Origin: Agroathelia rolfsii
Taxonomy: Eukaryota > Basidiomycota > Agaricomycetes > Amylocorticiales > Amylocorticiaceae
DNA length: 64,000 nt
Assembly (NCBI GenBank): GCA_018343915.1
Contig: JABRWF010000001.1
Coordinates: 4,216,001-4,280,000 of the forward strand
Reading direction: 5' to 3'
In this document: piece by piece, positions 10,118 through 61,900 of the stretch
How the letters are laid out: every line of letters begins with the position of its first letter
Position numbering within the stretch: position 1 is the stretch's first letter
Translations under genes and position numbers: made by a program
Notes under the pieces: model-generated
Told to the model about the DNA's origin: nothing
Seen by the model: the letters and a program-made list of their open reading frames with translations, nothing else
Databases searched by the model: none

Positions 10118-10125
10118 GTTATCAC
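10118..10125. repeat. Left 8-bp target-site duplication TTATCACA
   Basis: TTATCACA directly precedes the element; the identical octamer follows the right end at 20895-20902. Removing element plus one copy leaves a continuous host sequence reading CTGCATG-TTATCACA-CGTGTGG. Confidence 0.85.
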
Positions 10126-10159
10126 AATTCACTCTGGTTATTTATAAGTAACAACCAAA

Positions 10160-10510
10160 AATATATATATAGTTTTACAATAATATTTACTTTGGGTATA
10201 ATCTTATGTAATACTAGTGTTTTTACATTAAGTAAAAACCTAGGATTTACATTGGTTTTTATATTAAGTAAACCAATAAGTAAATATAGCAACTTGAGCT
10301 AAAGTAAAATCAGTAGTTTTACCTAAAGTAGAATTTCTGACATTTTTACTCAGGGTAAAGCTATTGTATTTACCAGAAAATTTACTCTAGGTAAAACCAT
10401 TCAGGGTAAAACTGTTGTATTTACTATAAAATTTACTCTAGGTAAAACCATTAGTAAAACTATAAGTAAAAACCATCCGTGGTTTTACTCCGAGTAAAAC
10501 CGAAAGTTTT
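10160..10510. repeat. Subterminal palindrome array, left arm
   Basis: About ten short units built on TTTTAC(4-6 nt)GTAAAA. Examples are GTTTTTACATTAAGTAAAAA (from 10219), two copies of TTTACTCTAGGTAAAACC and a near-perfect palindrome GGTTTTACTC...GAGTAAAACC at 10481-10501. Dense subterminal repeats of this type are where transposases bind in several DNA transposon families; that role here is inference. Confidence 0.75.
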
Positions 10511-10527
10511 ACATAATCGCCCCGATT

Positions 10528-10640
10528 AGGTCGCCTAGGTGCCTACATCGCCTAGTAGTGGTCGCCTGGGTGCCTACATCACCTAGTATACATCACCTAG
10601 TAGTGGTTGCCAGGGTGCCTACATTGCCCAGTAGTGAGTG
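10528..10640. repeat. Short tandem repeat, about three degenerate ~37-bp units (left arm)
   Basis: The phrase GTGCCTACATCGCCTAGTAG recurs with minor changes and is separated by TGGTCGCC. A mirrored copy lies at 20383-20495. No coding content. Confidence 0.7.
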
Positions 10641-11566
10641 CCCTACTTACATCTCCAAAGGTGCTCAGAGAAAAATTCACATTGCCCAAGCAATCTAGTC
10701 TATTTACTAATCACCAGTCAGGCGATCCAATCCATTCACTAATCACCAGCCAGATGCTTAGTCAGGCAACTCAGTTTAGTAACAAGTTGCTATTTGCATA
10801 TTGAATGAGGCAATCCATCCTGGTTCCCTTACCGTTTAGATGCCTAATCATTAATTTAATCTCTTTTATTATATAGAGGGCCAGTGCACCTAACACTATC
10901 TACAAGGCTATATAGCTAAACTAAACCACCACCTCCTTCCGCCTGATGAACTTCAAATTGTTTGAAGGTTCTTATCTAGTGCACAAATCATAGGCGATGT
11001 ACTACTACTTAAGACAATACATGAGAGCAACCATTGATCTGAGGAATGTTAGCGCAGAATCCAGCTGTTGGAAGAGGTCCTTGGGGCCTTCCAAAGGGGT
11101 CTAAGAGGAGCTGACACAAGTAATTGTTGTGGTACATGCGGCGACGTAATCGTCTTGGTCGAATTTTGCATCCAACTAATCACATACCTGAGTTTGGGGC
11201 ATGGCATTTACATAATTGTAAGGGGATTAGGGCTTTATGGAAGTACAGCAAAAATGACGTATTATGGAACAAGAGTCATTGGCTATTTGAGCCATTGCAA
11301 TATTACAAATGTGTAAATAAATAAATAAAATGATATAGTTTGCTAGGTATCCCAATGAAAACTGCAGAAAATAGCATAACATACGCATTAATAAAAGACC
11401 AAGGTTGCAAAAGGGTTAGTTTATACCTTGGCAGGTTGGTTTCTACCGCGTCCAACTCCTTAAGCATCTGAATGGCCTGTGCAAGCCAATTTTAATTTAT
11501 TTTAATGCTGTCGGTTGCATCTTCAAGGGTATTGATTAAAAAATGGTGCAAGGCCTCTTTGTGCCT

Positions 11567-11818
11567 TTATTTTTTGTGTGAGTAGATAGTATGATAAGAA
11601 CACTGAGTAGAATACTCAGGATCATTCTCGTCAATTGGATCCTTTGGTAGAAATGAGTCTCTGGCCCTCAGTTTGTCGCGTAGTTCCTTTCTGTTCTTGA
11701 TCTCGGCGGTATACTCCTCTACGCAATTAAAAATGAACACGAGAAGATAATCTCGCATAGTCATGTCTTGTTCAGTCATAGATGAAGACGACGAAGACAA
11801 CCCGGATGATATAGACAT
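11567..11818 (-). CDS. Hypothetical 83-codon ORF in the left arm (possible exon of a lost gene)
   Basis: Begins MSISSGLSSSSSSMTEQDM, followed by MTMRDYLLVFIFNCVEEY and a charged KELRDKLRARDSFLP stretch. I do not recognise it. A diverged copy sits on the same strand at the left edge of the core (14164-14361), aligning as SSGPSSSS...MTMQDRLFMSISNREKE, and a short downstream block also matches (KEALHHFL against KEALRKYLLF). Retained protein-level similarity suggests this was once an exon of a gene carried by the element. A second identical copy is at 19205-19456. It may no longer be expressed. Confidence 0.4.
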   Translation of the reverse strand: MSISSGLSSSSSSMTEQDMTMRDYLLVFIFNCVEEYTAEIKNRKELRDKLRARDSFLPKDPIDENDPEYSTQCSYHTIYSHKK

Positions 11819-13383
11819 GGTTGATATGAGTGAAGAAGGGAGTCAGGGTTAGAAAGCCAAGATAACTCGGATGAATTGACAACGATCGAGTGAATGCTTT
11901 ATGGTGTGATTACCCTGCATGGTTTAGATAGGAGAGAGACCATGGCACATATATGGAATAGTTATAGTTACCGCCACCTAATATTCTAATTACTACTTCG
12001 AACCAGTGTAACGTGGCTCAAATCATAAGTAATTACCTACAAGTAGTACAAATAATGTGCTTCACCTAACGAAGCTAGAACTAGCTTTTGAGCAGCTCTA
12101 TCCTGGTAGGGCTATTACGCCATTCCTAATTGCGTGGCCACCAGGATACAATCATGTACTTGGTCAAAGGGAATATATTGACCTGAGAAATAAAACAATA
12201 CTGGGTAAAAGGGGGTATGGAAAGTGCTTTCAGGTGTAGGAGTAGATCTATGCCGGGTCGCAACATCATCGCCAGAGGCACAGGGGTATGGTAGGAGCCA
12301 TAAGGAATTTGCAAAATAAACGGTGAGGGGAAATATGAAAGGGGGTATGATGCAAAATGAGAAAAGAAGATGGAAAGGAGGAAAAGAAAAACAGACAAGG
12401 AAACTATGTACAAACATCTAGTGTCATGGAAAGTTGTGAAAGGATGAGTGACCACAAAATGAGGTTATTGCACATACTGCAGAGCAAGCAGCCTGGTAAG
12501 GGAGATGAGAGTAAGTTAAGTAATGCCCTAGGATAGTGTATCAACATTTATTCATCTTACATATTGGATGGAATGGATAACTCACCACATGAACACCACT
12601 CGGAGTGTCTTCGAATGGAAACAAAGCATATCTCCAATTAAAATACTGGAATAGACGTCAGAAGGGAGGAAGATGCGATGCGCAAGCCATTGAGCAGAAA
12701 TCTGCTGCTCACAATGGCATCCGGAGCTTGAGATCTTAAGAGAACGTCATGATCCAGTTGTCGATACTGTTGATAGGTAACTAGCAAAGGGGTGACAAAG
12801 TAAGAACCAGAAATCATGGAGTGAAAGCCATCAAGCAGCAATCCGCCGCTCGACATGGCCTCAGATTTCTAGGAGGGCACCATCCAGTTGTGGATGCACA
12901 ACTGGGAATGGCACCCATGCGTACCAGTGGTCGTCGTCAAAGAGCAACTCAAAGCAGCAAGGCCGAGTGATCATGATCACGCTGTCACGATTACTGTGAC
13001 ATATCACGGCGCAGTGATCGCCCCTATAGCGATAAAGATCATGTGAGTTTTACTGAATCGGTAATATCTGACTCTTCTGCATCAGATCCATACTTTTCTT
13101 TCACTTCGGATCTAGAAAATTAGTGCATGAACAGGAATGTTCAATAAAGACATAGGCCAACATTTAGTAAGTTCTTCTCGCTCTTTCTTATATTGAAAAG
13201 CCTTGGCGTAGTGCTCGTTAATCGTCAATTGATGGATTTCGGAGACTTCATCAGACTCAGCGTCAGAGAGCATGCTGAACAAGATACCGGGGACGCGGGT
13301 GCCCAACGCTAAGCGCCCGAGCCTATATTTATTCGAGTCAGCCCTACACACAACAGCTTCGTAGCCAACTATCACCATTGCGG

Positions 13384-13840
13384 GGTCGTTCCCGGTTGTG
13401 CATCCACAGCCGGACGATCTTCCGCCCTCTTGTCAACACGATGGTCCTCTGGTCTTAGCCAGGTTATCTTGTCGTCCCGGTCACGGATCGTGGCCGACCG
13501 GCGTTGATGACTTGGTGGTGGTTGTTTTTAGCGGCGGATCGCTGCTCTAACAACTATTCGTCAAGACTGTTGTTGTCTTCCCATCTCTTGCTTTTTACTA
13601 TTAATATTCTCCGCTCCCGGCTGTGCATTCACAGCTGGACAACCTTCTGCTCCATTGTCATCAACACAATGATTCTCTGGCCTTAGCTAGGTCATCTCGT
13701 CGTCCACGGCCATGGATCTCTTGCTTTCTATATCAATCTCCTCTGCTCTTAGCTGACCTGAATTCAACTGCTGGTTGACTACTCATCAGGGTTGTTTTTG
13801 TTTTTGTTTTTGTTTATTTCCGTTACTCGTTCTCCGACGA
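13384..13840. repeat. Diverged ~230-bp tandem duplication with hairpin motifs (left arm)
   Basis: CCCGGTTGTGCATCCACAGC (from about 13389) and CCCGGCTGTGCATTCACAGC (from about 13616) each start a unit that continues with a similar CTGGTCTTAGCCAGGTTATC / CTGGCCTTAGCTAGGTCATC block. Each start folds as CCRGYTGTG-4 nt-CACARCYGG. A third, better hairpin (CCAGTTGTG, GATG, CACAACTGG) is at about 12883-12904. The whole set is mirrored in the right arm at about 17183-17639 and 18119-18140. Confidence 0.65.
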
Positions 13841-13984
13841 CACACGATCCTAGCCGTGTGGTTGGGCTCAGCAGCCTCCAGCCAGGACATCTTTTAGAAA
13901 CCTAACGTCTCATTATTCTCAGCCGTGGACCATAGTTGACCAGGCAGTACCAGGTTCAGGGCGCATATTACAGACTGGGTTATT

Positions 13985-14361
13985 GCATCTTTAAGGATGA
14001 AGAGGAGATATTTGCGCAGGGCCTCCTTGTATCTTAATTTTCATGAGTAGATGATACAACAAGAATGGAGAATTAAATACTTATGATCATCACCGCCGTC
14101 TGCATTGTTGTCATCCACCTCGTCGTCATTGGAAAAAAATGAATCTTTGCCCGTCAACATTTTTCATATTTCAGTCATGTAATTGATTTGGGCGGAGCAC
14201 TCTTTCTCGCGATTTGAAATAGACATAAAAAGACGATCTTGCATGGTCATGGGCATAGACAAAGACCCAAATTGTTCAGCCGTATATATAGACGACGAAG
14301 ATGGCCCAGATGACGTAGATATGGTTGTTATAAGTGAAGAAGTAAAGGAGTCAGGGAGTAT
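13985..14361 (-). pseudogene. Diverged, broken core copy of the arm gene fragment
   Basis: The nucleotide sequence parallels 11517-11870: GACGACGAAGATGGCCCAGATGACG against GACGACGAAGACAACCCGGATGATA, both followed by TATGGTTGTTATAAGTGAAGAAG-type sequence and AGTCAGGG. On the minus strand it reads SSGPSSSS, MTMQDRLFM, a stop, then KDSFFSND and KEALRKYLLFILKDA. It lies antisense to the 5' region of the core gene and starts exactly where TIR identity ends. Confidence 0.6.
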
Positions 14362-14383
14362 AGAAGCATGTTTTTTTGGCCTT

Positions 14384-16911
14384 ATGAGTGAGATCTCGTG
14401 GCTTGTTGCGTGTGGCTTCGAGCCCACCTCCAATTATGACTTAGACATTGCCAACTTCGATGCAAAGTTAGTTGCATATCTGGCAGAGCACGATATTCCT
14501 CCCTCTTTCACCCGCCACCTGATTCAAGCAGGCGTCATCTTTGGCTCGGAGATCGTCCATCGAGCAGGTGCTATTTGGGACTTCACTGGCCAAGATGAAT
14601 ATCTAACGGCAACATGTACGTCCGGCCTGGCTGTGTTAACGGCACAAAAAATGCTGTATTTTGGAGTTCCCATGTGGGTTAACTGGGGTCCAGTCCCTTT
14701 ACCCTCACATCCTCGGTCACTTGGCCTCCTCGACCTGCTCTATCCAACCACGGACGAAATCCAGACGACACTCAGTGTCGCGGGACATCAGCCGCCTGTC
14801 ATCGAGATTCGCCAATCTTCCAACCCTCCTCGTCCAGTTGCCCAGAGTGGACAAAAACCGGGAGAGTCTTGGCGAAACTTTTTTGCTCGCCGAGACGTTG
14901 AAAATGCCTGCAAAGCGGAAAAGCAAACACCTCAGCAGGCAAGCCTTCGTCTCTGTCGCCTTGAGGAGTCCAAGAAGTATCTCGCGCCCCAAAGAAAGGT
15001 TTTTCATGTTTGGCTGTGGTCGCAAGACGGAAATGGTTTTTGGGAGCGAGAGCAAGTTGCGAAAGACGATATCACTGATGTATGGAAGAATTATTCGAAG
15101 TCACAACGACATTACGATAGCTTCTGCGATGAGTGGGACCTATGTGATGATTTTTCATTTCCTGTTCCTTTGGTTGCCGGGAGGCCGGATACCTGGAAAA
15201 CCAGTCAGTATGAGATTTCTGATCTTTCGGGAGATGATCAAATAGACTCTTTCAACGAATTTCGGTCCAAATCCCCGGACAGTAATCATGCAGGCAACAT
15301 AGAGCGGTCCCCTGGCAGTAATCACGCAGATGAGATACAACAAGACGTCCTCACTGCTTCATCCTTACCTGAGTTTTGCTATTCTCCTCGTCCTCTTATC
15401 ACAGCCCTCGTCAGTTCTACCCCACCTGTAAGTAGCCATTGCTGTTTCTTCCGTAAATGATCTCATTTTAGGGTTAACTTATTATACAGGATATCTCGCC
15501 TTTAGTACATACTGCGCATTTACCCTCTGATACGTCTAATACCCGCGTTATTCCTTCCTCTTCTTCTGACCTTGTCTCCTCTACCATATCTCCCATTCCT
15601 ATTCATAGTTCCCATTACTCGGTTCCAACTGCAGATGATGTCGCTCCGGTACCACTCCCTATCGCTCTCCCTGCAGCCCCGCACAGCTTACTCGTAGATT
15701 GCTCCGCCCAGCCCGAAGGCAGTGCTTCGCCGACTACTTCATCCACCTCACCTGCTATGGCATTTGAGCAATCGCTTCAGCTGTTCTATGGTTTGAATCT
15801 GCAGGGTGCTCCTCCAGAAGTTCCGTCTAACTTCAACCTTACGGACCAAAAAGTCAATAGCATCTTTGGGGACGGCAATGCCATTCTCCAGACACAAGAG
15901 CAGAATTGGTTAAGGGTCTGCGCGAAATCCATCTCAGAGAAAGAGAGCCTACCTAATGGACTCTGGGACGGTAACTTACTTATCAAACCGTCTTCAACCG
16001 TAGTTCTGCGACTGCGCGTGTCAGGAGACCACACATGGTACCAAGTTGATACCCGGCGGCCTATGGTTTCACAATGGCTGCTACTACTTAACTCAGCTAC
16101 AACGGCCTTCTTTTGCGTAAGGCTTGGCGACCTTGTTCCCGGTGAAGTAACCATCCAAAAACTGGTGGAAGAACTTCTTCGGAATGGTTTGCCGTTTACG
16201 ACTGCATCTCACAGGCCTTTGCCTGATGTAAAACAAGCAGCGGGCAATTGCAGACCTACAGTATTTCCAAAATTCAGGCGTTCTCAAGACTGGCAGCCTA
16301 CTCGTGATGATCACATCTCATATGAACTGCAGCGAAAAGAGCTTCTTTCGAAATCACATGTTCGTCGTGCGGCGCTAATGCATGGAGGTATCGTATGGCG
16401 GATCGCTCTAGAAGTGGGTGGACTTTCGTCTGCTATTGACCAGGTAATTTCTGGACCTACCCATATTGCTGAGCGACAGGAGTTTTGTGTCCTTATTCCA
16501 GACACATACTCATCGGAGCCACTTGCTGATGACGGTCTCTCCCCTGAGGAAATGAGTCTCATTGTCGGCACATATCTCGTGGAAACACCTGGCCCCGCTG
16601 GTACAGTCCGCCATACAGCTTTGTCATGGTGGCCACGTCCAAATGAATGGCGAATAAGTAGCTCCAATCATGCTCTCTGGACTGCTGAAAACGAGCGATG
16701 GTTTCAACATGAGCTTAATCAGATGAGGGATGGTAGAGCCTGGCCGAAGAAATGGGACAATCTCCCCGGCCTCCGCTTAACGAAAAGACTGAGGAACACG
16801 ATTGAAGCTTCATCTTCTGCGGTGATTATGGTAGGTTGTAAATTTCTAAGGATCGCAATATGCTTATTCCTTGATTTATTAATATAGGCCAACTATGGAC
16901 CAATATCTTAG
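14384..16911 (+). CDS. Core gene of the long-TIR element, large protein of unknown function
   Basis: Exons 14384-15427, 15490-16830 and 16888-16911 (GTAAGT...ACAG and GTAGGT...ATAG introns) give about 802 residues. Upstream in-frame ATGs exist from 14183, but I chose 14384 because 14183-14350 overlaps the antisense relic and FEPTSNYDLDIANFDAKL looks like the natural N-terminus. The N-terminal third includes FTRHLIQAGVIFGSEI and a Trp-rich WVNWGPVPLP. The middle carries FHVWLWSQDGNGFWEREQV, then WKNYSKSQRHYDSFCDEWDL. A Ser/Pro-rich linker follows (about residues 300-450). The C-terminal part ends with SWWPRPNEW and ENERWFQHELNQM. From memory, repetitive agaricomycete hypothetical proteins share the YDSF.NEWDLC and WWP...W...WF patterns; no function is established. 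I see no DDE triad, zinc fingers or helicase motif. It is the only intact long gene in the element. Confidence 0.75.
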
Positions 16912-17038
16912 TATTTGTATATGTATTACTCATGTATTTTGATTTTTTATTTGTGAAATAATCCTCATTTGACACTATTAAATATCCAGTAAAAATAACC
17001 TGCATAAATTCAGTGGCACGACGTCGCTTTTTATCTAA
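16912..17038. other. Core right edge, 3' flank of core gene
   Basis: AT-rich 3' flank with TTTTTATTTGTGAAATAATCC and no ORF. Ends where the right TIR starts. Confidence 0.5.
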
Positions 17039-19204
17039 AATAACCCAGTCTGTAATATGCGCCCTGAACCTGGTACTGCCTGGTCAACTATGGTCCACGG
17101 CTGAGAATAATGAGACGTTAGGTTTCTAAAAGATGTCCTGGCTGGAGGCTGCTGAGCCCAACCACACGGCTAGGATCGTGTGTCGTCGGAGAACGAGTAA
17201 CGGAAATAAACAAAAACAAAAACAAAAACAACCCTGATGAGTAGTCAACCAGCAGTTGAATTCAGGTCAGCTAAGAGCAGAGGAGATTGATATAGAAAGC
17301 AAGAGATCCATGGCCGTGGACGACGAGATGACCTAGCTAAGGCCAGAGAATCATTGTGTTGATGACAATGGAGCAGAAGGTTGTCCAGCTGTGAATGCAC
17401 AGCCGGGAGCGGAGAATATTAATAGTAAAAAGCAAGAGATGGGAAGACAACAACAGTCTTGACGAATAGTTGTTAGAGCAGCGATCCGCCGCTAAAAACA
17501 ACCACCACCAAGTCATCAACGCCGGTCGGCCACGATCCGTGACCGGGACGACAAGATAACCTGGCTAAGACCAGAGGACCATCGTGTTGACAAGAGGGCG
17601 GAAGATCGTCCGGCTGTGGATGCACAACCGGGAACGACCCCGCAATGGTGATAGTTGGCTACGAAGCTGTTGTGTGTAGGGCTGACTCGAATAAATATAG
17701 GCTCGGGCGCTTAGCGTTGGGCACCCGCGTCCCCGGTATCTTGTTCAGCATGCTCTCTGACGCTGAGTCTGATGAAGTCTCCGAAATCCATCAATTGACG
17801 ATTAACGAGCACTACGCCAAGGCTTTTCAATATAAGAAAGAGCGAGAAGAACTTACTAAATGTTGGCCTATGTCTTTATTGAACATTCCTGTTCATGCAC
17901 TAATTTTCTAGATCCGAAGTGAAAGAAAAGTATGGATCTGATGCAGAAGAGTCAGATATTACCGATTCAGTAAAACTCACATGATCTTTATCGCTATAGG
18001 GGCGATCACTGCGCCGTGATATGTCACAGTAATCGTGACAGCGTGATCATGATCACTCGGCCTTGCTGCTTTGAGTTGCTCTTTGACGACGACCACTGGT
18101 ACGCATGGGTGCCATTCCCAGTTGTGCATCCACAACTGGATGGTGCCCTCCTAGAAATCTGAGGCCATGTCGAGCGGCGGATTGCTGCTTGATGGCTTTC
18201 ACTCCATGATTTCTGGTTCTTACTTTGTCACCCCTTTGCTAGTTACCTATCAACAGTATCGACAACTGGATCATGACGTTCTCTTAAGATCTCAAGCTCC
18301 GGATGCCATTGTGAGCAGCAGATTTCTGCTCAATGGCTTGCGCATCGCATCTTCCTCCCTTCTGACGTCTATTCCAGTATTTTAATTGGAGATATGCTTT
18401 GTTTCCATTCGAAGACACTCCGAGTGGTGTTCATGTGGTGAGTTATCCATTCCATCCAATATGTAAGATGAATAAATGTTGATACACTATCCTAGGGCAT
18501 TACTTAACTTACTCTCATCTCCCTTACCAGGCTGCTTGCTCTGCAGTATGTGCAATAACCTCATTTTGTGGTCACTCATCCTTTCACAACTTTCCATGAC
18601 ACTAGATGTTTGTACATAGTTTCCTTGTCTGTTTTTCTTTTCCTCCTTTCCATCTTCTTTTCTCATTTTGCATCATACCCCCTTTCATATTTCCCCTCAC
18701 CGTTTATTTTGCAAATTCCTTATGGCTCCTACCATACCCCTGTGCCTCTGGCGATGATGTTGCGACCCGGCATAGATCTACTCCTACACCTGAAAGCACT
18801 TTCCATACCCCCTTTTACCCAGTATTGTTTTATTTCTCAGGTCAATATATTCCCTTTGACCAAGTACATGATTGTATCCTGGTGGCCACGCAATTAGGAA
18901 TGGCGTAATAGCCCTACCAGGATAGAGCTGCTCAAAAGCTAGTTCTAGCTTCGTTAGGTGAAGCACATTATTTGTACTACTTGTAGGTAATTACTTATGA
19001 TTTGAGCCACGTTACACTGGTTCGAAGTAGTAATTAGAATATTAGGTGGCGGTAACTATAACTATTCCATATATGTGCCATGGTCTCTCTCCTATCTAAA
19101 CCATGCAGGGTAATCACACCATAAAGCATTCACTCGATCGTTGTCAATTCATCCGAGTTATCTTGGCTTTCTAACCCTGACTCCCTTCTTCACTCATATC
19201 AACC

Positions 19205-19456
19205 ATGTCTATATCATCCGGGTTGTCTTCGTCGTCTTCATCTATGACTGAACAAGACATGACTATGCGAGATTATCTTCTCGTGTTCATTTTTAATTGC
19301 GTAGAGGAGTATACCGCCGAGATCAAGAACAGAAAGGAACTACGCGACAAACTGAGGGCCAGAGACTCATTTCTACCAAAGGATCCAATTGACGAGAATG
19401 ATCCTGAGTATTCTACTCAGTGTTCTTATCATACTATCTACTCACACAAAAAATAA
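19205..19456 (+). CDS. Hypothetical 83-codon ORF in the right arm
   Basis: Identical to the left-arm ORF in mirror position. The start ATG follows CATATCAACC. Downstream, KEALHHFL and LAQAIQMLKELDAVETNLP lie in frames broken by stops, consistent with unspliced introns or decay. Confidence 0.4.
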   Translation: MSISSGLSSSSSSMTEQDMTMRDYLLVFIFNCVEEYTAEIKNRKELRDKLRARDSFLPKDPIDENDPEYSTQCSYHTIYSHKK

Positions 19457-20382
19457 AGGCACAAAGAGGCCTTGCACCATTTTTTAATCAATACCCTTGA
19501 AGATGCAACCGACAGCATTAAAATAAATTAAAATTGGCTTGCACAGGCCATTCAGATGCTTAAGGAGTTGGACGCGGTAGAAACCAACCTGCCAAGGTAT
19601 AAACTAACCCTTTTGCAACCTTGGTCTTTTATTAATGCGTATGTTATGCTATTTTCTGCAGTTTTCATTGGGATACCTAGCAAACTATATCATTTTATTT
19701 ATTTATTTACACATTTGTAATATTGCAATGGCTCAAATAGCCAATGACTCTTGTTCCATAATACGTCATTTTTGCTGTACTTCCATAAAGCCCTAATCCC
19801 CTTACAATTATGTAAATGCCATGCCCCAAACTCAGGTATGTGATTAGTTGGATGCAAAATTCGACCAAGACGATTACGTCGCCGCATGTACCACAACAAT
19901 TACTTGTGTCAGCTCCTCTTAGACCCCTTTGGAAGGCCCCAAGGACCTCTTCCAACAGCTGGATTCTGCGCTAACATTCCTCAGATCAATGGTTGCTCTC
20001 ATGTATTGTCTTAAGTAGTAGTACATCGCCTATGATTTGTGCACTAGATAAGAACCTTCAAACAATTTGAAGTTCATCAGGCGGAAGGAGGTGGTGGTTT
20101 AGTTTAGCTATATAGCCTTGTAGATAGTGTTAGGTGCACTGGCCCTCTATATAATAAAAGAGATTAAATTAATGATTAGGCATCTAAACGGTAAGGGAAC
20201 CAGGATGGATTGCCTCATTCAATATGCAAATAGCAACTTGTTACTAAACTGAGTTGCCTGACTAAGCATCTGGCTGGTGATTAGTGAATGGATTGGATCG
20301 CCTGACTGGTGATTAGTAAATAGACTAGATTGCTTGGGCAATGTGAATTTTTCTCTGAGCACCTTTGGAGATGTAAGTAGGG

Positions 20383-20495
20383 CACTCACTACTGGGCAAT
20401 GTAGGCACCCTGGCGACCACTACTAGGTGATGTATACTAGGTGATGTAGGCACCCAGGCGACCACTACTAGGCGATGTAGGCACCTAGGCGACCT
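20383..20495. repeat. Short tandem repeat, right-arm mirror copy
   Basis: Reverse complement of 10528-10640, internal to the subterminal palindrome array. Confidence 0.7.
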
Positions 20496-20512
20496 AATCG
20501 GGGCGATTATGT

Positions 20513-20863
20513 AAAACTTTCGGTTTTACTCGGAGTAAAACCACGGATGGTTTTTACTTATAGTTTTACTAATGGTTTTACCTAGAGTAAATTTTATAGT
20601 AAATACAACAGTTTTACCCTGAATGGTTTTACCTAGAGTAAATTTTCTGGTAAATACAATAGCTTTACCCTGAGTAAAAATGTCAGAAATTCTACTTTAG
20701 GTAAAACTACTGATTTTACTTTAGCTCAAGTTGCTATATTTACTTATTGGTTTACTTAATATAAAAACCAATGTAAATCCTAGGTTTTTACTTAATGTAA
20801 AAACACTAGTATTACATAAGATTATACCCAAAGTAAATATTATTGTAAAACTATATATATATT
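20513..20863. repeat. Subterminal palindrome array, right arm
   Basis: Mirror copy of the left-arm array, beginning near CTTTCGGTTTTACTCGGAG and ending close to the right terminus. Confidence 0.75.
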
Positions 20864-20894
20864 TTTGGTTGTTACTTATAAATAACCAGAGTGA

Positions 20895-20902
20895 TTATCA
20901 CA
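20895..20902. repeat. Right 8-bp target-site duplication TTATCACA
   Basis: Follows the right TIR end (CCAGAGTGA) without a spacer base. Matches 10118-10125 exactly. Confidence 0.85.
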
Positions 20903-40504: not shown

Positions 40505-42250
40505 CCAACCCTCTCGATTCGTTGCCTATCCTTAGCCTTATGCGTCCGCATCACGCTGTTGTGTCCACAAGTGCCCTTTGCCATAATCGTCTATCGCCGC
40601 ATCGCCCGTCCATGTTCTTGTTGCGCTAAACCTTCCATCGGGGTCTCCGGTGAGTTTGGTTTGTGACAGTATTTCCGAACTTCCATCTTGTTTCACTGCA
40701 CATTCATAATCATGTCTTCTCCTTGTGTTCGCCTTAACGCTACATCATTTTCCTTACCTAATGCTCTCTCATTAACACTTTACGCTCCTGAAATACCCAC
40801 GATCATTCCAACACTTCTAGACTCAGGCTCTATGCACTGCTTCATTGATTTGGCATTTGTATCCCGTCATAACCTCTTGTGTACTCCCTTGGAACCCATT
40901 GCGCTTCGACTCTTTGATGGGTCAAGCAATCATGTCATTACCCAATCTGTTGATTTAGATGTCCGTTTTCCCTCTGGTGACTGCATGTTGGTACCATTCT
41001 TTGTCACACCTCTCGATTCTTCCTGTTCCGCTGTTTTGGGCCACAACTGGCTTATCCATTACAATCCGTTGATTGATTGATCGAGCAGCAGTATTACCTT
41101 CCAAGACAGCCAGTAGAAAGGTCGAAGGATTATGTCTGCAGACAGCAAGTCCTGCAATGATTCTGCCACCCGCCAAGCCACAGCGTCCAATCAGGCATCC
41201 AGCAGGATGGCACCTGTACCTGTTCCCTTCAGAAGCGCTTCCGCGCAACCCAAGGTATCGTTAATTGGCTGCTCAGCATTCCTCCGGGCATGCAGAGCGA
41301 GTGGTACCATGTACCAATTGTCCGCTGAATCAACAGACCTCATGGGACGTTCGTCATCTCAAGAGCCCGCCGACCTTTCCAACATTCCCCCCAAGTACCA
41401 CGAATTTGCCAACGTTTTTAGTGAGTCGAAGTCTGAGCTCCTCGCCCCCTACAGGTCCTATGACCTGAAAATTGATCTCGTAGACAGCGCTGCTCCACCG
41501 CACGGTCCGATCTACTTGCTGTCCGCTCTTGAGCTCAAAGCTCTCCGAGAATTCATTGACGAGAACCTCCGCACTGGATTCATTCACTCCGCTACTTCAG
41601 CACATGGAGCCCCGGTGCTCTTTGTCAAGAAGAAGGATGGTTCCCTTCGTCTTTGTGTTGACTTCAGAGGCCTGAACAAAATCACCAAGAAGGATTGATA
41701 CCCACTCCCACTCATTGCTGACCTCCTCGACACCCCGAGGAAGGCAAGAATTTACACCAAGATCGACCTTAGGCATGCTTACCATTTAGTTCGCATAGCC
41801 AAAGGAGACGAGTGGAAAACAGCGTTCCATACTCGTTATGGTTCGTTTGAGTGGCGTGTCATGCCCTTTGGCCTTACGAATGTGCCGGCAGCCTTCCAGC
41901 GCTTCATGAATGACATCTTTTTGGATCTTCTCGACATCTGCATCATATGCTATTTGGACGACATTCTGATCTACTCGGACTCCCCGGCGATGCATTCTGC
42001 TCACGTTTGGAAAGTTCTTCATAGATTGTGTAAGCATGGTCTTTATGCGCGCGCAGATAAATGTTCTTTTGGTGTTGACACAGTCGAGTACCTAGGCTAC
42101 ATCCTCTTACCGGACGGGCTGACAATGGATGTGGCCAAGGTTAAGGACATCACCAAGTGGCCCGAGCCCAGGAAGGTCAAGGATATACAATCTTTCCTTG
42201 GGTTTGCGAATTTTTATCATTGGTTTATACTCAACTATGCCGATATCATT

Positions 42251-43255
42251 TGTTATGAGTTGGACATTTTTCGCCGATTCTTTACGAACATGTACATATT
42301 TTTATTGTATTTTTACGATTTTTATTCATTGAGATAGGGATGAAATACCTTGCAGGCGACATCTTGACGCGCGTGTGACTGGCTGTGTTAGCCCCACGTG
42401 ACAGGAGTGCTCGTGACAAGAGTATATTAGGAAGGCGGAGTCTAGATCATTCCTTTTCATCAAAAGGTCTAGACTCAGGAACCAGGGTCGTTCCGATCAC
42501 TGTGCAATTACTAAGGAGTACTAGACTCATCACTCCGATCAGTTGCTTATCGGACTTAGTCATAAAGCACTGCCCCTGCATTTTTACATGTTCCTGTTTA
42601 CAAACCCCGGCTGTGCACAGACCAACGAGGCTATGCACGGGCCCTTTCATTTATGTATAAATACAAGCATGTAACCCTTACCTGAACCTTAGCTTTGACC
42701 TTCTTGCCTTTAGGTAAGGGCACCCCCCCTTGTACTTACCACATATTACTAATATATTTTCTCACCTTCAGGCTTGTTCTCCTAGCCCACATTCCCCTCC
42801 CTTTCTCCTGCCTATTTAGTGTAAGGCCTCTACGGCATCTAAGTAGAATACGTAAGCCCTAGTACCAGAGGGCAGCCTGAGTTATAAGTCCTCAATACAA
42901 GGAGGCAGTGTGTGTGAACCAAAATCCTGTTTATTCAGATAGAGGCAGTAACAAGTCCTCTCAGACATACGTAGAGCACGGTGGGCTAAGCTGCCTGTCT
43001 CGAGTAAGAACCAGTTAAAAGACTATTTGACGCAAAGCGAAGTACACGGGAAGACTTCTGTCTAGAGTACCGATCACTAGCCAAGCAAAGTAGTCGATTA
43101 AGTGGACTATTACAAAGAGCAGCAACAGGAGCACGTGCGTGTCTGCCAATAAACCAACCTAGTAACACATTATAAAAAGGGGTCTTACAGCCTATCCCTC
43201 ATACCTTCGAGAGGGTTGATGTTTGTTGGTTACGTCAAGCACGCAAGCCTTGACA
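42251..43255 (+). mobile_element. Family B solo LTR (1005 bp) in RT of element C; TSD TCATT
   Basis: TGTTATGAGTTGGACATTTTT to CGCAAGCCTTGACA, flanked by TCATT (42246-42250, 43256-43260). It contains TGTGCACAGACC/TATGCACGGGCC boxes, TATAAATA at 42656 and the intron-like segment 42714-42771. Confidence 0.92.
42714..42771 (+). other. Intron-like segment in B LTR (58 nt)
   Basis: TTCTTGCCTTTAG precedes a GTAAGG donor, and TTCTCACCTTCAG ends the segment, with TATTACTAATATA as a branch-like site. The donor is 58 nt from the TATA start, the same spacing as in families A and G. Confidence 0.55.
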
Positions 43256-45896: not shown

Positions 45897-47366
45897 ATGA
45901 GCACACGCAAGGGCACCTCTTACAAGCCCAAGGAAGTTCTGGTCCCCTGGGCCACCAAGTCTACTACATCACTGCCTGAAGTAACCAGAGAAGTCGCGTC
46001 GAGCTCGGCTCCGCACTTATCAGAAGAAGAAGAGGAGGAAGAATCCGGCAAAGAAGCCACTTCAACAAGAGCCTCCCCACCTAAGACGCCAGAAGGAGAA
46101 GAAGAAGCACCATCTAAATACCCCTCTCCTTCTGATTTCCGCTGACAATACACCACCGAAGCCGAATATCCCTCTTCTCCTATTGTACCTCACCCCTCTC
46201 CATCAAAAAGTTGTCACAAACACCGCCACAAAAAGAAAAAGGAAACCAGCCCAGAAGAACTACCTGAAATGTCGCTTTCTCAGAAACTCGGTCAAATCTT
46301 GGCACTCCTCCAGGCTAACCAAGCCCGTATCCAAGTTTCCATGGGACAGATGCAAGAGACTCAAGCACACTTCACTGACCTCCTGGAACAGGAACAACCC
46401 GCACCTGCCACTGCCACGGCCGCTGCTACCTCCACGCCTAAAGAGATAGGACAAGCTCCGGAGAAATGGTCTGGTGATTGGTCAAAATACCAATCCTTCA
46501 TTTTTGGGTTTGAAAACTACATCAAACTCAACCCAAAAATATACGTATCAGACTACACCAAAGCAAGGTACTTTGTAGGGTTGTTAGAAGGAGCCCCAAA
46601 AGCTTGGAGCCAGAAGTTCGACGATGTCATTGACACCAAAAGCTTCAACTTTGAGAAAGACCTGTATGCCAAGTTTAAAGCTCTATACAGTGCAAGAGAC
46701 TTTGGGAGAATTGCCCTACAAAAATTGCAGGATCTAAAGCAAGGGACGTCTTCAGTAGCAGACTTTACGGCCACTTTTTCCATGCTCGCTAATTAGACCA
46801 AGCTGTCTAGTGAAGACCTCCAAGTCCGCTATTGGCAGGCTCTCTCTCCAAAGATCAAGGGTATCATTGGTGGCTACCCAAAAGAATGATGAAATTCTCT
46901 AGAAAACCTGATGGAAGCGGCTGTGGATGCAGAAGAAGGTCTACACGATGCTGGAGTTTGGACGGATGGCTGGAAACCCCGCCCTCAATTCCAAAATACA
47001 CAGGGGACCGCCGCAAATCCAATTACAATCAATGTGGCACAATCTTCACCCACTCCAACTACGGCCACACAAGGAAGCCGCCACCCGCCTAGAGATCTGA
47101 GCACTGTGCAGTGCTACAATTGCCAACAATGGGGGTACTTCGCCTCCAACTGCACAAATCCTTGAGTCTCAAGGTACCAGGGTTCTAGACCTAAGGTACA
47201 GGCTACAACAACACTGGCACCCCCTTCTGCTGACCAGCTGGGCACGTCAGCTGCTATGGACGATATCAACGAAGGTTCCACCACGATGACAATGGCAGAC
47301 CTACAGGCACTAGTCAAACAACAAGCTATGGCATTGGCCACCTTCAAAGACAAGGTGGGTTTTTAG
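45897..47366 (+). pseudogene. A element gag, four in-frame stops
   Basis: One frame from MSTRKGTSYKPKEV through 47366. It has an acidic, Ser/Thr-rich N-terminus (SEEEEEEESGKEA), a coiled stretch from MSLSQKLGQILALLQANQ, and the capsid-like core YQSFIFGFENYIKLNP and ARYFVGLLEGAPKAWSQK typical of fungal gypsy gag. A zinc knuckle CYNCQQWGYFASNC follows, in which the expected His is Tyr. Stops lie near 46143, 46794, 46887 and 47163. Pol begins in the -1 frame relative to gag, as in many gypsy elements. The product would form the virus-like particle. Confidence 0.85.
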
Positions 47367-48417: not shown

Positions 48418-51400
48418 TCTATTCCCGCTTTGTAAAAGAAAAACATATAACTACAAAAAAATTACCTCACACTATCCCTGTATTTAATATAGACAATTCC
48501 CTAAATGCTCAAGGCAGAATTGAAGAAATTGCTGTACTCAAAACAAGCATTGGAGGAGTTCGAAAGAAGCTTTCCTTCTTAGTCACAGACATAGGTCCAG
48601 AAAACGTCATTCTTGGAATTGACTGGCTACGTTTAGAAAACCCAGTAATAGATTGGTCAGCAGGAAGGGTCAAGCATTCCGAACAGCTAAAAATTTCCTC
48701 TAGCCTTCTTCCAGAATGGGCCTCAGAATACACTTCTGTATTTTCTAAGGAAGCCTTTCAAAGAATGCCCCTTTGAAAGCCTTGGGATCACAAGATCGAA
48801 CTAAAAGATGGAGCGCAACTACAAAGAAGCAAAGCCTACCCTCTCTCAATAAAAGAAGAAGAAGCGCTAGTGGATTATCTCAAAGAAAACCTTGAGAAAG
48901 GCTATATCAGGAAGTCAGAAAGTCCCATCGCCGCCCCTATGTTCTTTGTCCCAAAGAAAAATGGGTCCTTACGACCAGTTCAGGACTACCAAAAGCTTAA
49001 TGCCGAGACAATCGAGAACGCTTACCCTCTCCCCCTTATCTCCGAACTACAGGACAAAATGACCAAATTTCAAACATTCTGTAAGATCGACCTATGTTGG
49101 GGCTTCAATAACATTCGAATCCGGGAAGGCAATGAACACAAGGCAGCCTTCATCACGAATAAAGGGCTGTTTGAACCAACTATTATGACCTTTGGGCTGT
49201 GCAATGCACCCGCAACGATGCAAACCATGATGGACGACCTCTTTTACAAATTCAACCAGTTGGGATGGCTAGTACATTACATTGATGACATCATCATTGG
49301 TGCACAAACAGAGGTCGAACTCCGAAAACAAGTCTTAGAAGTACTCAAACTCCTCAAGGAAAACGATCTGTTTGCAAACCTTGAGAAGTTTGAGTACGAT
49401 GTTCCCAAAGTAGACATTTTGGGCGCCTTGGTTTCCTTTGGTTTAATTTGTATGACCCTGGAAAAGGTCAAAGCAGTCCTGAATTGGCCGGTTCCCCAAA
49501 AGGTTTCTGATGTCCAATGTTTCTGAGGACTCGCCAACTATTACCGGCGCTTCATTCGAAATTTCGCCCAGATCTGTAAACCCCTGGACTGTTTAACCGG
49601 AAAAGTAGACTGGAAATGGGGATCAAAAGAGCAAGAAGCCTTTGATGCCCTAAAAGCGGCCTTTACTTTGGCACCCATACTCAGAGCATACTTGCAAACA
49701 GCAGAAACACAGTTAGAAACAGACGCTTCAAATTTTGCAACAGGGGCAGTCCTTCTCCAAAAATAATCTGACAACTCTTGGTGACCAATTGCTTTCCTTT
49801 CTCAAGCAATGAACAACGCCGAGTGAAATTACGATATTTAGGATAAGGAAATGCTGGGCATAATTAGGGCTTTGGATGTATGGCGGCATTATCTCATCGG
49901 TCTACCTCACCCTTTTGAAATCCAAACAGACCATAAAAATTTAGAATATTGGAAGACAGCTAGAAACCTCACACGGCAACAAGCAAGATAGTCCCTTTTC
50001 CTATCCGAATTCCGGTTTACAATTTCTTACCTCCGAGGATCTGAAAATGGACGTGCCGACCCGCTCTCTTGGCAACCGGACTTCCAACGTTCTGATGAAG
50101 AAGACAACCTAGACCAGGTGGTCCTAGACCCCAAACTCTTTCGAATCAATGCCACAAGAAGAGGACACGTCAAAATCCAAGGAGAAAAAGGAATTCTGGA
50201 CAGAATTAGAAGCAAAGCCAAGGATGCCGAAATAGCAAATGCCCTAGGACTAGTAAAAGAGCTTGGTCCGGTAAAATTACAGAAGGGTTTGGAAGAATGG
50301 AACAAAGAAAATAGCTTAATCTTACACTTAGGAAAGGTCTATGTACCCCGTGATACTACACTACGTAATGACATCATTTGTCTCCACCACGACATACTGG
50401 CAGCCGGTCACCCTGGCCAACACAAAACCCTCGAGCTTGTATCAAGGAACTATTGGTGGCCCGGGCTGACTAAAGCCATCAACGACTATGTAGCATCATG
50501 TCCTGTGTGCCTTGCCTCCAAAACAGCCCGTTCAATGCCAGTAGGACCATTGTCACCCCTACCCACTCCAGAACGTCCCTAGGAACATGTTACTTCAGAT
50601 ATGATCATAAAACTCCCGGAATCCCAGGGATATGACTCGATCCTAGTGGTGGTGGATAGATTAACCAAAATGTGTCATCTAATCCCCTGCGTTGAAGTGA
50701 TCATGGCATCAGAAATGGCAGACCTATACCTAACCAACGTTTTCCGACTACATGGGCTGCCATATCAATGGACTTCGGACAGAGGACCCCAATTTGCTGG
50801 AAAAGTCATGTGGGAAATCCACAAACGGCTAGACATCAAAACCTCCTTGTCCACCGCCTATCATCCACAATCCGATGGACAGACCAAACGACTTAACCAA
50901 GAAGTCGAAGTCTACTTGAGAAATTATGTGTCCCATAGACAAGACAACTGGGCAGGCCTCCTCCCCCTTGCAGAGTTCGCCCTCAATAATAGACAACAGG
51001 CATCGACAGGCACTTCTCCGTTTGAAATGAATTACGGCTTTTCCCCAAGAATGAACCTCACAACAATAGGAATTCCGAGTACCGAAGGGGCACAAGTGTG
51101 GACGGAAAAAGTCAAAGAACTCCAAGAAGATGCCAAGGCAGCACTAGATCACGCAGCTAGCCGAATGAAATACTTCTTTGATAAACATGCAGCGGAAGTC
51201 CCAATATACGCTGTTGGCAACAAAGTTTGGTTAAGCACCGAAAATATCAAATTGGCCCAGCTATTAAAGAAACTTTTGGCAAAATGGATTGGTCCATATA
51301 AAATTACAGAACTTATAGGAAACCAAGCCGTTCGACTTGCTATTCCTAAGAGATGGACCATTCATGATGTCTTCCACGTATCTTTGGTTAAACCACATGT

Positions 51401-51645
51401 TCAGGTTGAGTCTAGACCACTCGTCCCTATCCCCGAAGTTGTTGAGATAGAAGGAGAAGAAGAACACGAGGTACTATGCATTAAAGATAGCTATCTAAGC
51501 CCAAGGACCAAGAAGTTAGAATACCTGGTCGAATGGAAGGGATATCCAGGAGAAGATTCATGGGAAAAAGAAGCCAACATCACCAATGCCCCACGACTAA
51601 TCAAAGATTTCCACAAAAAGAACCCCAGAGCACCTAAACGCCTTT

Positions 51646-52522
51646 TGTCAAGAGCTGCCTTCACAGCTAGCTCGGGCGGTGCGGCGATGCCCCTGGGGCG
51701 CTAACTACTACAGCTGCTCACTGCCAGATGGCAGCCCTGTGGGTTCGTGGAGTCGCCTCTTCGATATCTCGGGGCTTGCGGGGATACGGGTGACGCGGCG
51801 AGCAGGCACGGCGTACGGCAAGTTGAGCGGGAAGTCCGGCGAGATTAGGCGTAGAGCAGAAGATGTCAAGCCAGAGAGAAGAAGCTAGACAAGACACTCG
51901 AGGACGCTTGAGTCCACAGGTTGACCGCTGGCAATGCAGCGGGTGTAGGGCTTGTTTAGGGCCAAACACACTTAATTTTCCGACTACTGTATCTACTACA
52001 TCAGGTACAGTACATATATACTAGAATACAGTAGTCGCAGAAAGATAAATAAAGAAGTAGGAGAAAACAATAAAGACAATAAGTAATAGCGCGCGCCGCG
52101 CGCTCTGGTAGTCGTGCCACGCTATGCACGAAGGCGGGGGTGCCTTCCTTCGGAAACATCGGCGGTCTGATCGTCAATCAGAGCGCGATTGTGAGGGAGA
52201 ACCAAGTGCGATCTTCCAAGATAGGAAGGATCCGCTGGTGGGGACACATGGCAACTCGGGGATTGACATCGAGAAGGCCAGTCGGCATGTGGAACGCTCT
52301 GATGAACAGAAGCGCATCGATGATGGAGAAGAAGCGTGATGGGCGGCCATGCACATGGCTCCGGGGAAACGTCGGCGGACACATCGGAAACGCTTCCGAT
52401 GCACAGGACACACGGCGACGCAGAAGGGAGGATGTCGCCGGTGGCTCCGTCGTAGTTGTTCGCGAATGTCAATGTGCGCGATCGGGACGTTCGGCGGCCG
52501 GGTGCGTTGGCAGGTCGTGACA
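51646..52522 (-). mobile_element. Family F LTR (877 bp) after the chromodomain; TSD CCTTT
   Basis: TGTCAAGAGCTGCCTTCACAG to GGCAGGTCGTGACA, flanked by CCTTT (51641-51645, 52523-52527). It separates the last pol codons from the polypurine tract. Confidence 0.9.
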
Positions 52523-58986: not shown

Positions 58987-61900
58987 TTACCCCCTTCTCA
59001 AGGGAGTTACTCCGGAACTTCCCTAGTTCCCATCCAGCGTTTTCCTTAGTATTGGTTTCTGTGTAATTCTCAATAGGCCTAAAAGGTAATTCCCCAAAGA
59101 CTGCAGCATTTAAGCGTTTAGGTGCATTGGGGTGCCTTTTGTGGAAATCTCATATTCTAGCCTTGGCATGTGTCAGGTGATCCGTGGGCTCCCAATTGTC
59201 TTCCCCTGGGGCATCTTTCCAGCTAACAAGATATTCAAGACTTTTAGGTCTTCCCGAGATCCTGGAGTCCTTAATCTGAGCAACCTCCCATTCCTCTTCT
59301 CCTTCGACCTCGACTGGTTTGGGTAGTGGTTGGTCCCAGTCTGATGGCTTGTGACCCGATAATAGGGAAACATGAAAGACATCATGTATGGACCAAGTTC
59401 AAGGTATCTTGAGGTGATAAGCAAGAGGACCGATCTTTTCCAGGATTTTGTATGGACCTGCAAACTTGGCAGCAAGCTTCTTGGTTGGCTGAGAAGTCTT
59501 CAGGTTTTCCGTGGATAGCCAGACTTTGTCACCCTTCTGCCATTGAGGCATTTCTCAAATATGTTTATCAAATAACTCCTTCATCTTTTCCGCAGCTAGA
59601 TTGAGGGCAGCTTGGGCGTTGGCTTGGGCATTGGCTATTACGTATAACCAGTCTTCTACAGCAGGGGTTTCGAATAAGCCAGTGAGGGAGAAGTCCATTC
59701 TTGGGTTGAATCCGTAATTCATCCGGAAAGGAGAGGTTTTGGTGGCCGAGTGTTGACGGTTGTTTAGGGCAAACTCAGCAGAAGGGAGTAAACGAGCCCA
59801 GTCATCCTGGCGGTGTGAGACAAAGAACCTTAGATACGCTTCTAGCTCCTGGTTTACTCGTTCTGACTGTCCGTCTGTCTGCGGGTGATAAGCTGTGGAC
59901 ATAGCCATGGTGATCCCTAATCACTTATGTACCTCCTTCATAACCTTGCTAGCGAATTGGGGTCCTCAGTCAGAGATAATTCGGGATGGTAACCCATGGA
60001 GCTTAAAGACGTGTGACCATAATAGCTCCACTGTCCCAATGGCATTGATCCTTTCCATGGTGGGGATGATATGCGTCATTTTGGAGAATCGGTCGACTAC
60101 TACCAGAATACTATCATAGCCCTGAGAATCAGGAAGCTTGACTATCATGTCCATTGTAATGTGATCCCATGGTCTAGTGGGTGTTGGAAGCAGTTCTAGA
60201 GGGCCAAATGCAGGTAAACGTGATGACTTGTTCTAGATACAGGTTTGACAGGTTTCGATGTATTCATTTACGGCCTTAGTCATACCGGGCCACCAATAGT
60301 TACAGGATACTAATTCAAGGGTTTTATGTTGACCTGGGTGACCGCTAAGCAGGCTATCATGGTACATGGAGATAATTTGGGATTGTATTTCCTTATCGGC
60401 AGGTACATAAACTCTTCCTTGTCGTAGGATCACACCGTTCTCCTGGTTCCATTCCTCCAAACCTTTCTGAAGTTTAACCAGACCAAGATCCTTAACCAAA
60501 TGGAGTGCTTCTGCAACCTCTGCTTCAGGAGAAGCATTCCGGATTTTCTTGAGCAGTTCGGACTCTCCTTCCATTAGCATATGGCCTCGTTGAGCGGCAT
60601 TAATTCGGAATAGCTTGGGATCAAGTAGCACTACCTCTTGGTTGTCGTTGGCATCGGAAACTTGAAGGTCTGGGTGACGGGACAGAGCATTGGCCTTGCC
60701 ATTTTCAGCGCCTTTCTGGTAATGAATACAGAAATTAAAGTCTGCCAAGAAAAGGGACCAGTGAGCTTGACGATGGGTGAGATTGGGGGCAGTTGTCCAA
60801 TATTCCAGATTTTTGTGGTCTGTCCAGATTTCAAAAGGTTCGGGTAGGCCTTGGAGGAGATGACGCCAGTGATCCAGAGCGTGGATAACTCCCAGCATTT
60901 CCTTGTCCCAAATGTCATAATTCCTTTTGGCATCATTCATGGATTGGGACAGGAAAGCGATTGGATGCCAGGCACTGGATTCATCTCTTTGGCTAAGAAC
61001 TGCATCAGTAGCATACAAAGAAGCATCTGTCTCAACTCGGGTTGGGGCCTTTTGATCATAGGATTGTAGAACTGGGGCAGTGCTAAAGGCCTTCTTGAGG
61101 TTATCAAAGCTTCCCTGCTCTTCAGAACCCCAGGTCCAGTTGACCTTGCCAGTGAGGCGGTCCAGAGGTTTGCAAATTTTTCCAAAGTCATGGATGAATC
61201 ATCGATAATAATTAGCCAAACCTCAGAATTTGCGAACCTCTTTGATGTTCTTCAGGGTGGGCCAGTCTTGTCAAGAGCTGCCTTCGCAGCTAGCTTGGGC
61301 GGTGCGGCGATGCCCCTGGGGCACTAACTGCTAAGCTGCTCACTGCCGGATGGCAGCCCTGTGGGTTCGTGGAGTCGCCTCTTTGATATCTCGGGGCCTG
61401 CGGCGATACGGGTGTCACGGCGAGTAGACAAGCGTATGGCAGGTTGGTGCGGGTAGTTTGGCGAGATCAGGCGTAGAGCAGAGGATGACAAGCCAGAGGG
61501 AGAGAGCAGAACAAGATACTCGAGAACGCTCAAGTCCACAGGTTGACCGCTGGCTATGCAGCGGGTGTAGGGCTTGTTTAGGGCCAAACACACTTAATTT
61601 TCCGACTACTGTATCTACTACATCAGGTACAGTACATATATACTAAGTACAGTAGTCGAGAAAATGATAAATAAAGAAATGCATGAAAGACAATAAGAAC
61701 AATAGGTAATAGCGCGCGCCGTGTGCTCTGGTAGTCGTGCCACGCTGTGCACAAAGGCGGGGGTGCATTCCTTCGGAAACATCGGCGGTCTGATCGTTGA
61801 TCAGAGCGCAATCGTGAGGGAGAACCAAGCACGATCTTCTCAGATAGGAAGGATCCGCTGGTGCGGGCACATGGTGACTCGGGGATGGACATCGAGAAGT

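Follow-up and report, generated by a model that had tools for sequence, protein, structure and literature searches.

Fungal EnSpm elements have CAC..GTG ends and 3-bp target site duplications (TSDs) (PMC12730594), and CNIRT6, a mobile and active CACTA element of the basidiomycete yeast Cryptococcus, has CACTG ends and variable 3-bp TSDs (PMC12810828). The former account also reports CxxC and Hx(3-4)H motifs in the transposases of the CACTA group, and describes two kinds of Plavaka ends, TGT..ACA, for which the TSD is 2 bp, and CATCA..TGATG, for which it is 2-3 bp. The capture of genes by other transposons in fungi has already been published, for example in PMC6710886 and PMC3538342. Here we analyzed an element with giant terminal inverted repeats (TIRs) in the basidiomycete Agroathelia rolfsii. 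The window, that is, the whole stretch of DNA that was analyzed, comprises 64,000 nucleotides (assembly GCA_018343915.1, contig JABRWF010000001.1, positions 4,216,001 to 4,280,000). We think that this element is probably a non-autonomous cut-and-paste DNA transposon of the CACTA/EnSpm type, with a Pack-TYPE and foldback-like build.

Galileo of Drosophila is a member of the P superfamily. According to PMC2775673, the TIRs of a given copy are more than 99% identical to each other, those of different copies diverge by about 7%, and chimeric copies are attributed to ectopic recombination.

Copies and architecture of the element

The host assembly consists of eight contigs with a total of 37.67 Mb, and the window is carried by a contig of 5.79 Mb. 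We searched the genome with 401 bp spanning the left end of the element and with its core, and obtained 12 and 6 matches, respectively; these counts are lower bounds. Six full-length copies of 10,674-10,764 bp were found at six loci.

Copy A: window 10130-20893, 10,764 bp
Copy B: C1:68735-79498
Copy C: C1:894899-905572
Copy D: C1:2169290-2180042
Copy E: C7:3380522-3391274
Copy F: C8:2929959-2940711

The initial annotation of the stretch had named the lack of other copies as a result that would refute its reading, and the search with the terminus came out the opposite way. When the first 20 bases were searched with up to 3 mismatches allowed, 12 places were found in the genome; all were exact, and all were termini of the six copies. 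The control, the same 20-base pattern read backwards, gave 8 chance places. No solo ends were found in the host assembly. The pairwise divergence of whole copies ranged from 0.05% (A versus B) to 1.02%. Copies A and B, which differ at 5 sites, lie in opposite orientation. C1 holds four of the six copies against 15% of the genome (binomial P 0.006), with a spacing of at least about 0.8 Mb.

The bounds of copy A are the ends common to the six copies. Its main parts in the window are as follows.

10130..20893, unstranded: whole element, copy A; CACTCTGGTTAT...ATAACCAGAGTG; ends common to six copies
10130..13984, + strand: left arm, 3,855 bp; from arm and six-copy comparison
17039..20893, - strand: right arm, 3,855 bp; reverse-complementary to the left arm except at one site
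10130..10529, unstranded: subterminal region; outermost 400 bp with 23 GTAAA/TTTAC motifs, repeated in mirror image at the right end

The matching inverted stretches (10129-13984 and 17039-20894) measure 3,856 nt when one flanking base each is included, and the arm within the element measures 3,855 bp, in agreement with the TIRs of about 3.86 kb that had been annotated. Between the arms lies a core of 3,054 bp. In copy A, arm-to-arm comparison revealed a single differing site between left and right. The inverted arms make up 2 x 3,855 of the 10,764 bp, and by this proportion the build is foldback-like; the term refers to build only and claims no kinship. The mirror-image arrangement around a core, first noticed in the window, recurs in all six copies, and therefore it is not a product of chance.

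Ends, target site duplications and superfamily

The ends common to the copies are CACTCTGG...CCAGAGTG. All 12 termini start with CACTCTGGTTATTTATAAGT, which corresponds to the CAC...GTG ends of CACTA/EnSpm elements. Directly outside five of the six copies we found an exact 3-bp duplication, the TSD length of CACTA/EnSpm, namely ATT (A), TAT (B), AGT (D), ATG (E) and CTC (F). The chance of an exact 3-bp duplication in at least five of six copies is 5.5e-9. Furthermore, GTAAA/TTTAC motifs cluster near the ends: the outermost 400 bp of the arm contain 23 of them, whereas each of the nine other bins (400 bp each, the last of 255 bp) contains 0-2. Subterminal repeats no more than a few hundred bp from the ends are also characteristic of CACTA/EnSpm. 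Taken together, the CAC...GTG ends, the variable 3-bp TSDs and the subterminal GTAAA/TTTAC clusters fit CACTA/EnSpm and not hAT/KDZ.

The flanks of copy A contain the following features.

10127..10129, unstranded: TSD ATT, left; from flank comparison
20894..20896, unstranded: TSD ATT, right; from flank comparison
10119..10126, + strand: TTATCACA octamer, left; not this element's TSD, no such pair at the other five copies
20895..20902, + strand: TTATCACA octamer, right; not this element's TSD

The initial annotation had read the octamers as an 8-bp TSD and had proposed a previously undescribed type of transposon. The octamers are indeed identical; the left one is separated from the element by 3 bp, the right one by 1 bp. 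However, alignment of the flanks of the six copies gave a 3-bp TSD in five of them. TTATCACA flanks copy A only, and at copies B-F no word longer than 5 bp is common to both 20-bp flanks. We rejected the 8-bp TSD, because no comparable pair exists at B-F and copy A fits 3 bp as well. Membership in hAT/KDZ on the basis of a TSD of about 8 bp was rejected likewise, since B-F do not have one. The proposal of an undescribed type with an 8-bp TSD is likewise not supported, the TSD being 3 bp and the ends being those of CACTA/EnSpm.

It is extremely improbable that the element nevertheless belongs to hAT or KDZ (Zisupton-like) and has a TSD of 8 bp. The presence of TTATCACA on both sides of copy A favors this idea: when 20,000 pairs of 20-mers were drawn at random from the window, only 56 had an 8-mer in common. 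But copies B-F contradict it, it needs uneven element ends at copy A only, the ends and the 3-bp TSDs fit EnSpm, and the genome gave no KDZ match in a search whose control was silent.

If the TSD is 3 bp, the empty site at copy A already held TTATCACA twice, 9 bp apart with a 1-bp spacer, and should read TTATCACAATTATCACA. Positions with an 8-mer repeated 5-12 bp away number 121 of about 64,000 in the window, simple repeats included. Since random sharing of an 8-mer is rare, a target that contained such a near-tandem beforehand would be uncommon, though possible. We speculate that the doubled TTATCACA could conceivably be the footprint of an older, excised transposon.

Searches of the genome with the Plavaka profile (PF18759) gave 8 matches at three places, and 7 of the 8 contained stops. 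These degenerate remnants lie at C6:4167054-4168227, C2:5073217-5074257 and C2:2086686-2086808 of the host genome (G000). Profile searches of the genome for Transposase_21, KDZ and DUF4218 gave no match. The control genomes were silent in all four of these transposase searches, and therefore the results do not prove absence. Plavaka was rejected as the identity of the element, because the ends CACTCTGG..CCAGAGTG match neither type of Plavaka end.

The core gene and movement in trans

The core contains one long gene, which was predicted from the reading frames and GT-AG borders.

14243..16911, + strand: core gene, 849 aa; exons 14243-15427, 15490-16830 and 16888-16911
15830..15840, + strand: stretch missing from D, E and F; exon 2 frame broken there

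The model has two introns. The exon 1 frame is open in all six copies and the exon 2 frame in A, B and C, and in copy A the whole frame is open. In D, E and F the exon 2 frame is broken, because these copies have in common a frameshifting deletion of 11 bp (the second stretch above). The three frameshifted copies are located at three separate loci, each with an exact TSD.

Neither the exon 1 frame nor the exon 2 frame had a Pfam match at E<=1. In the protein database, the spliced protein had no homologue at E<=0.001 among 7,993 candidates scored; a search with exon 1 only, limited in length so that full-length relatives would be missed, gave no match either. The same database gave 7,800 relatives of the neighboring methionyl-tRNA synthetase (MetRS) at E<=0.001, those listed being largely agaricomycete. 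The idea that proteins like that of the core are widespread among agaricomycetes was borne out by no search. In the host genome, the exon 1 protein had no match at E<=0.01 beyond the six elements; exon 2 had no match in PDB by sequence and none among viral contigs. The core protein contains neither the CxxC nor the Hx(3-4)H motif. It is not a recognizable transposase. AlphaFold models of the core protein made from single sequences had a mean predicted local distance difference test score (pLDDT) of 36 and 33, and were unusable.

We then compared the coding sequences of the copies. There are 21 differences, 19 nonsynonymous (about 2000 sites) and 2 synonymous (about 613 sites), and part of this count comes from copies whose frame is already broken. 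The chance of two or fewer synonymous differences without selection is 0.10, or 0.014 when transitions alone are considered. That is, these 19 nonsynonymous and 2 synonymous differences give no sign of purifying selection on the core gene.

Judging from these sequence data, the core protein is probably not required in cis. Movement in trans is most likely, because the core gene lacks the two motifs, is frameshifted in three copies and shows no sign of purifying selection. Because the core protein has neither transposase motifs nor a Pfam match, we class the element as CACTA-like and non-autonomous only. The second suggestion of the initial annotation, a giant non-autonomous foldback-like derivative moved in trans, is thus the best-supported reading now that six copies have been found. 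Our guess is that the core gene is a passenger or a former accessory gene.

We also considered whether the 849-aa protein is itself an unrecognized transposase, so that the element would represent a new superfamily that has CAC...GTG ends and 3-bp TSDs by coincidence. The core gene is the only long gene, its exons are open in the copies mentioned above, and no known family contradicts the idea, the protein having no Pfam or database match. On the other hand, the protein is without CxxC and Hx(3-4)H, purifying selection has left no sign, and both AlphaFold models are unusable. In addition, D, E and F carry the frameshift and yet occupy separate loci, each with an exact TSD, though intact copies could have helped them to move. 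We therefore regard this autonomous origin as unlikely.

Concerted evolution of the arms

We compared the ten arms of A, B, C, E and F, leaving copy D aside on account of the 37 differences between its arms. Of 64 variable events, 59 are mirrored between the two arms within every copy; one of these is a 45-bp deletion that is private to C. The five unmirrored events lie at arm positions 479 in A, 24 and 195 in B, 667 in C and 373 in E. All five fall within the outermost 667 bp, against 14 of the 59 mirrored events (Fisher P 0.0015, with the 667-bp cut-off taken from the data). Within a copy, the two arms differ at 1 site in A, 2 in B, 1 in C, 1 in E and 0 in F, compared with 37 in D, while arms of different copies have up to 45 differences in 3,855 bp (about 1.2%). 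The inner borders of the arms are identical in all six copies. It is therefore unlikely that each palindrome originated separately, and sequence must have passed between the arms after the divergence of the copies.

Copy D is a mosaic. Its left arm has 7 differences from the left arm of A and 37 from that of F, its right arm has 44 from A and 2 from F, and its core has 21 from A and 1 from F. Within the left arm, F-like sites remain at 284, 2483-2669 and 3845; at site 284 the state of A and B may be the newer one. Copy D keeps its matching AGT TSD. This pattern fits a copy one arm of which may have been converted by an A-like copy. We also considered D as the ancestral state with unlike arms. 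This is less likely, in view of a core with 1 difference from F and 21 from A, and because E and F would each need a separate later homogenization.

A different explanation is that at each transposition or gap repair one arm serves as the template from which the other is made anew, via a hairpin intermediate, so that identity is reset with every jump. It would account for the 0-2 differences within copies A, B, C, E and F next to up to 45 between copies, and for the small number of unmirrored changes. However, confinement of the unmirrored changes to the outer 667 bp is unexpected for a reset of the whole arm, and the several switches of lineage in the left arm of D point to patches of conversion. 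Neither point is decisive, but we consider such a reset doubtful.

It is very unlikely that the identity of the arms is false and was produced when arm reads were pooled during assembly or polishing. Arms of 3.9 kb are indeed difficult for short-read polishing. But misjoined flanks would not produce matching TSDs 10.7 kb apart, and five of the six copies have them. Moreover, D keeps its 37 arm differences, A, B, C and E keep one or two, and the deletion private to C is present in both arms.

As a further, unlikely reading, the giant arms might be the working part of the element. That is, fold-back copying tied to transposition or repair would renew arm identity, starting near the core and fading outward, with the core protein helping now or formerly. 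We know of no fold-back mechanism of arm renewal in cut-and-paste transposons, and the papers listed in a literature search included no precedent for one.

Transitions account for 57 of the 63 two-state sites in the 12 arms. Of these transitions, 28 are in CpG context, while 14% of the C and G of the arm belong to CpG. The core has 27 two-state sites, of which 23 are transitions, 6 of them at CpG. The substitution pattern of the arms hints at cytosine methylation. The arms could in principle also fold as a long double-stranded RNA hairpin, which would be a possible trigger of silencing.

Captured host DNA in the arms

Each arm carries a fragment of the host gene KRI1 and a short open frame, here called X.

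17738..17970, + strand: KRI1 fragment, right arm; 92% to G000:C3:4203533-4203765
13053..13285, - strand: KRI1 fragment mirror, left arm; same genome match (query 2525-2757)
19181..19456, + strand: open frame X (91 aa), right arm; below all Pfam cut-offs
11567..11842, - strand: X mirror, left arm
13985..14356, - strand: X third copy, diverged; left edge of the core

The KRI1 fragment is 233 bp long in each arm, and 214 of the 233 bases (92%) are the same as in the host parent, with no gaps. A later frame of the parent gene, on the same strand, matches KRI1 (PF05178, E 6.7e-7). The fragment starts 12 bp upstream of the presumed ATG and comprises the first exon, a presumed intron and the start of the next exon. 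The capture took place at the DNA level, because the match spans the switch between two open frames of the parent, presumably an intron. Thus captured host coding DNA lies between the transposon ends, as in Pack-TYPE elements. Inverted copies of a 26-bp motif (88%) bracket the fragment at 17609-17634 and 18115-18140; they are possibly a nested small element or a scar of the capture.

Frame X matched no Pfam family above the cut-off, the best being TrbM with 17.3 bits against a cut-off of 21. The core copy of X is 79% identical to the arm X over 85 bp and 67% over 109 bp; as protein it is 41% identical, with one stop. Since X is present in each arm and, diverged, at the edge of the core, the element was composite before its copies spread.

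Proposed mechanism

We infer the movement of the element and the exchange between its arms from the pattern of ends, flanks and differences, as follows. A CACTA-type transposase would be supplied in trans by an element that is now lost, unrecognized or outside this assembly. It would bind the subterminal motifs, cut at CACT...AGTG and insert the element at target sites with a 3-bp stagger. A single origin of the palindrome is most likely, because the inner borders are the same in all six copies. Gene conversion between the arms within a copy would then have maintained their similarity, least effectively at the outermost few hundred bases, and conversion between copies would be occasional, as suggested for copy D.

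Several points weigh against this explanation. The flanks of copy C are TAG and TAT, which are not an exact TSD (two of three bases alike). For copy A alone, the common octamer is a rarer coincidence than the common 3-mer. The autonomous relative with the same ends that the initial annotation had suggested looking for was not found in the host genome, though the controls were silent and absence is not proven; because no such partner was found, membership in CACTA is assigned from the ends, the TSDs and the subterminal repeats only. Finally, arm copying during transposition would look much like the pattern that we attribute, tentatively, to gene conversion.

Surroundings of the element

The MetRS gene adjoins the element. 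It is closest to the MetRS genes of agaricomycetes, which places the host most likely in this group. Its best named match among those listed is from Hypsizygus marmoreus (55% identity), and a metagenome fragment among the matches listed is 91% identical over half of the query. The window from 24000 to 64000 is a dense nest of long repeats, the open frames of which are of Ty3/gypsy type by eye (reverse transcriptase, integrase, gag), for example at 41699-42337, 46146-46796, 48777-49526, 50583-51704 and 60233-61198.

Comparison with known systems

The six copies form a base-by-base record of arm homogenization, with a gradient along the arm and one mosaic copy, and therefore homogenization in elements with long TIRs becomes testable in a fungus. 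The element also adds a CACTA-like case with a captured host gene fragment outside plants.

Like fungal EnSpm elements (PMC12730594) and CNIRT6 (PMC12810828), the element has CAC(T)...(A)GTG ends and variable 3-bp TSDs. CNIRT6, however, has TIRs of 24 bp and a transposase within about 7.5 kb (PMC12810828), whereas the present element has repeats of 3,855 bp and no recognizable transposase. Among the titles and abstract beginnings searched, a partial coverage of the literature that makes this weak evidence, we found no precedent for a CACTA element with kilobase arms. Plavaka is CACTA-related and is present in this genome as degenerate remnants, but its ends differ from those of the element (PMC12730594).

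Pack-CACTA and other Pack-TYPE elements likewise have CACTA-like ends, no recognizable transposase and a captured fragment of a host gene (PMC8903248). They are described for plants in that account, while here the host is a fungus and the fragment occurs twice, once in each giant arm. Unlike Pack-TYPE elements (PMC8903248), the present element has an additional long gene without host relatives in its core.

Galileo and the present element both have long TIRs that are alike within a copy, and both have chimeric copies (PMC2775673). In contrast to the chimeras of Galileo, copy D stands alone as a mosaic; it has a matching TSD of its own, and no reciprocal partner was seen. Galileo has 7-bp TSDs and TIRs of up to 1.2 kb (PMC2775673), and the arms described here are about three times longer.

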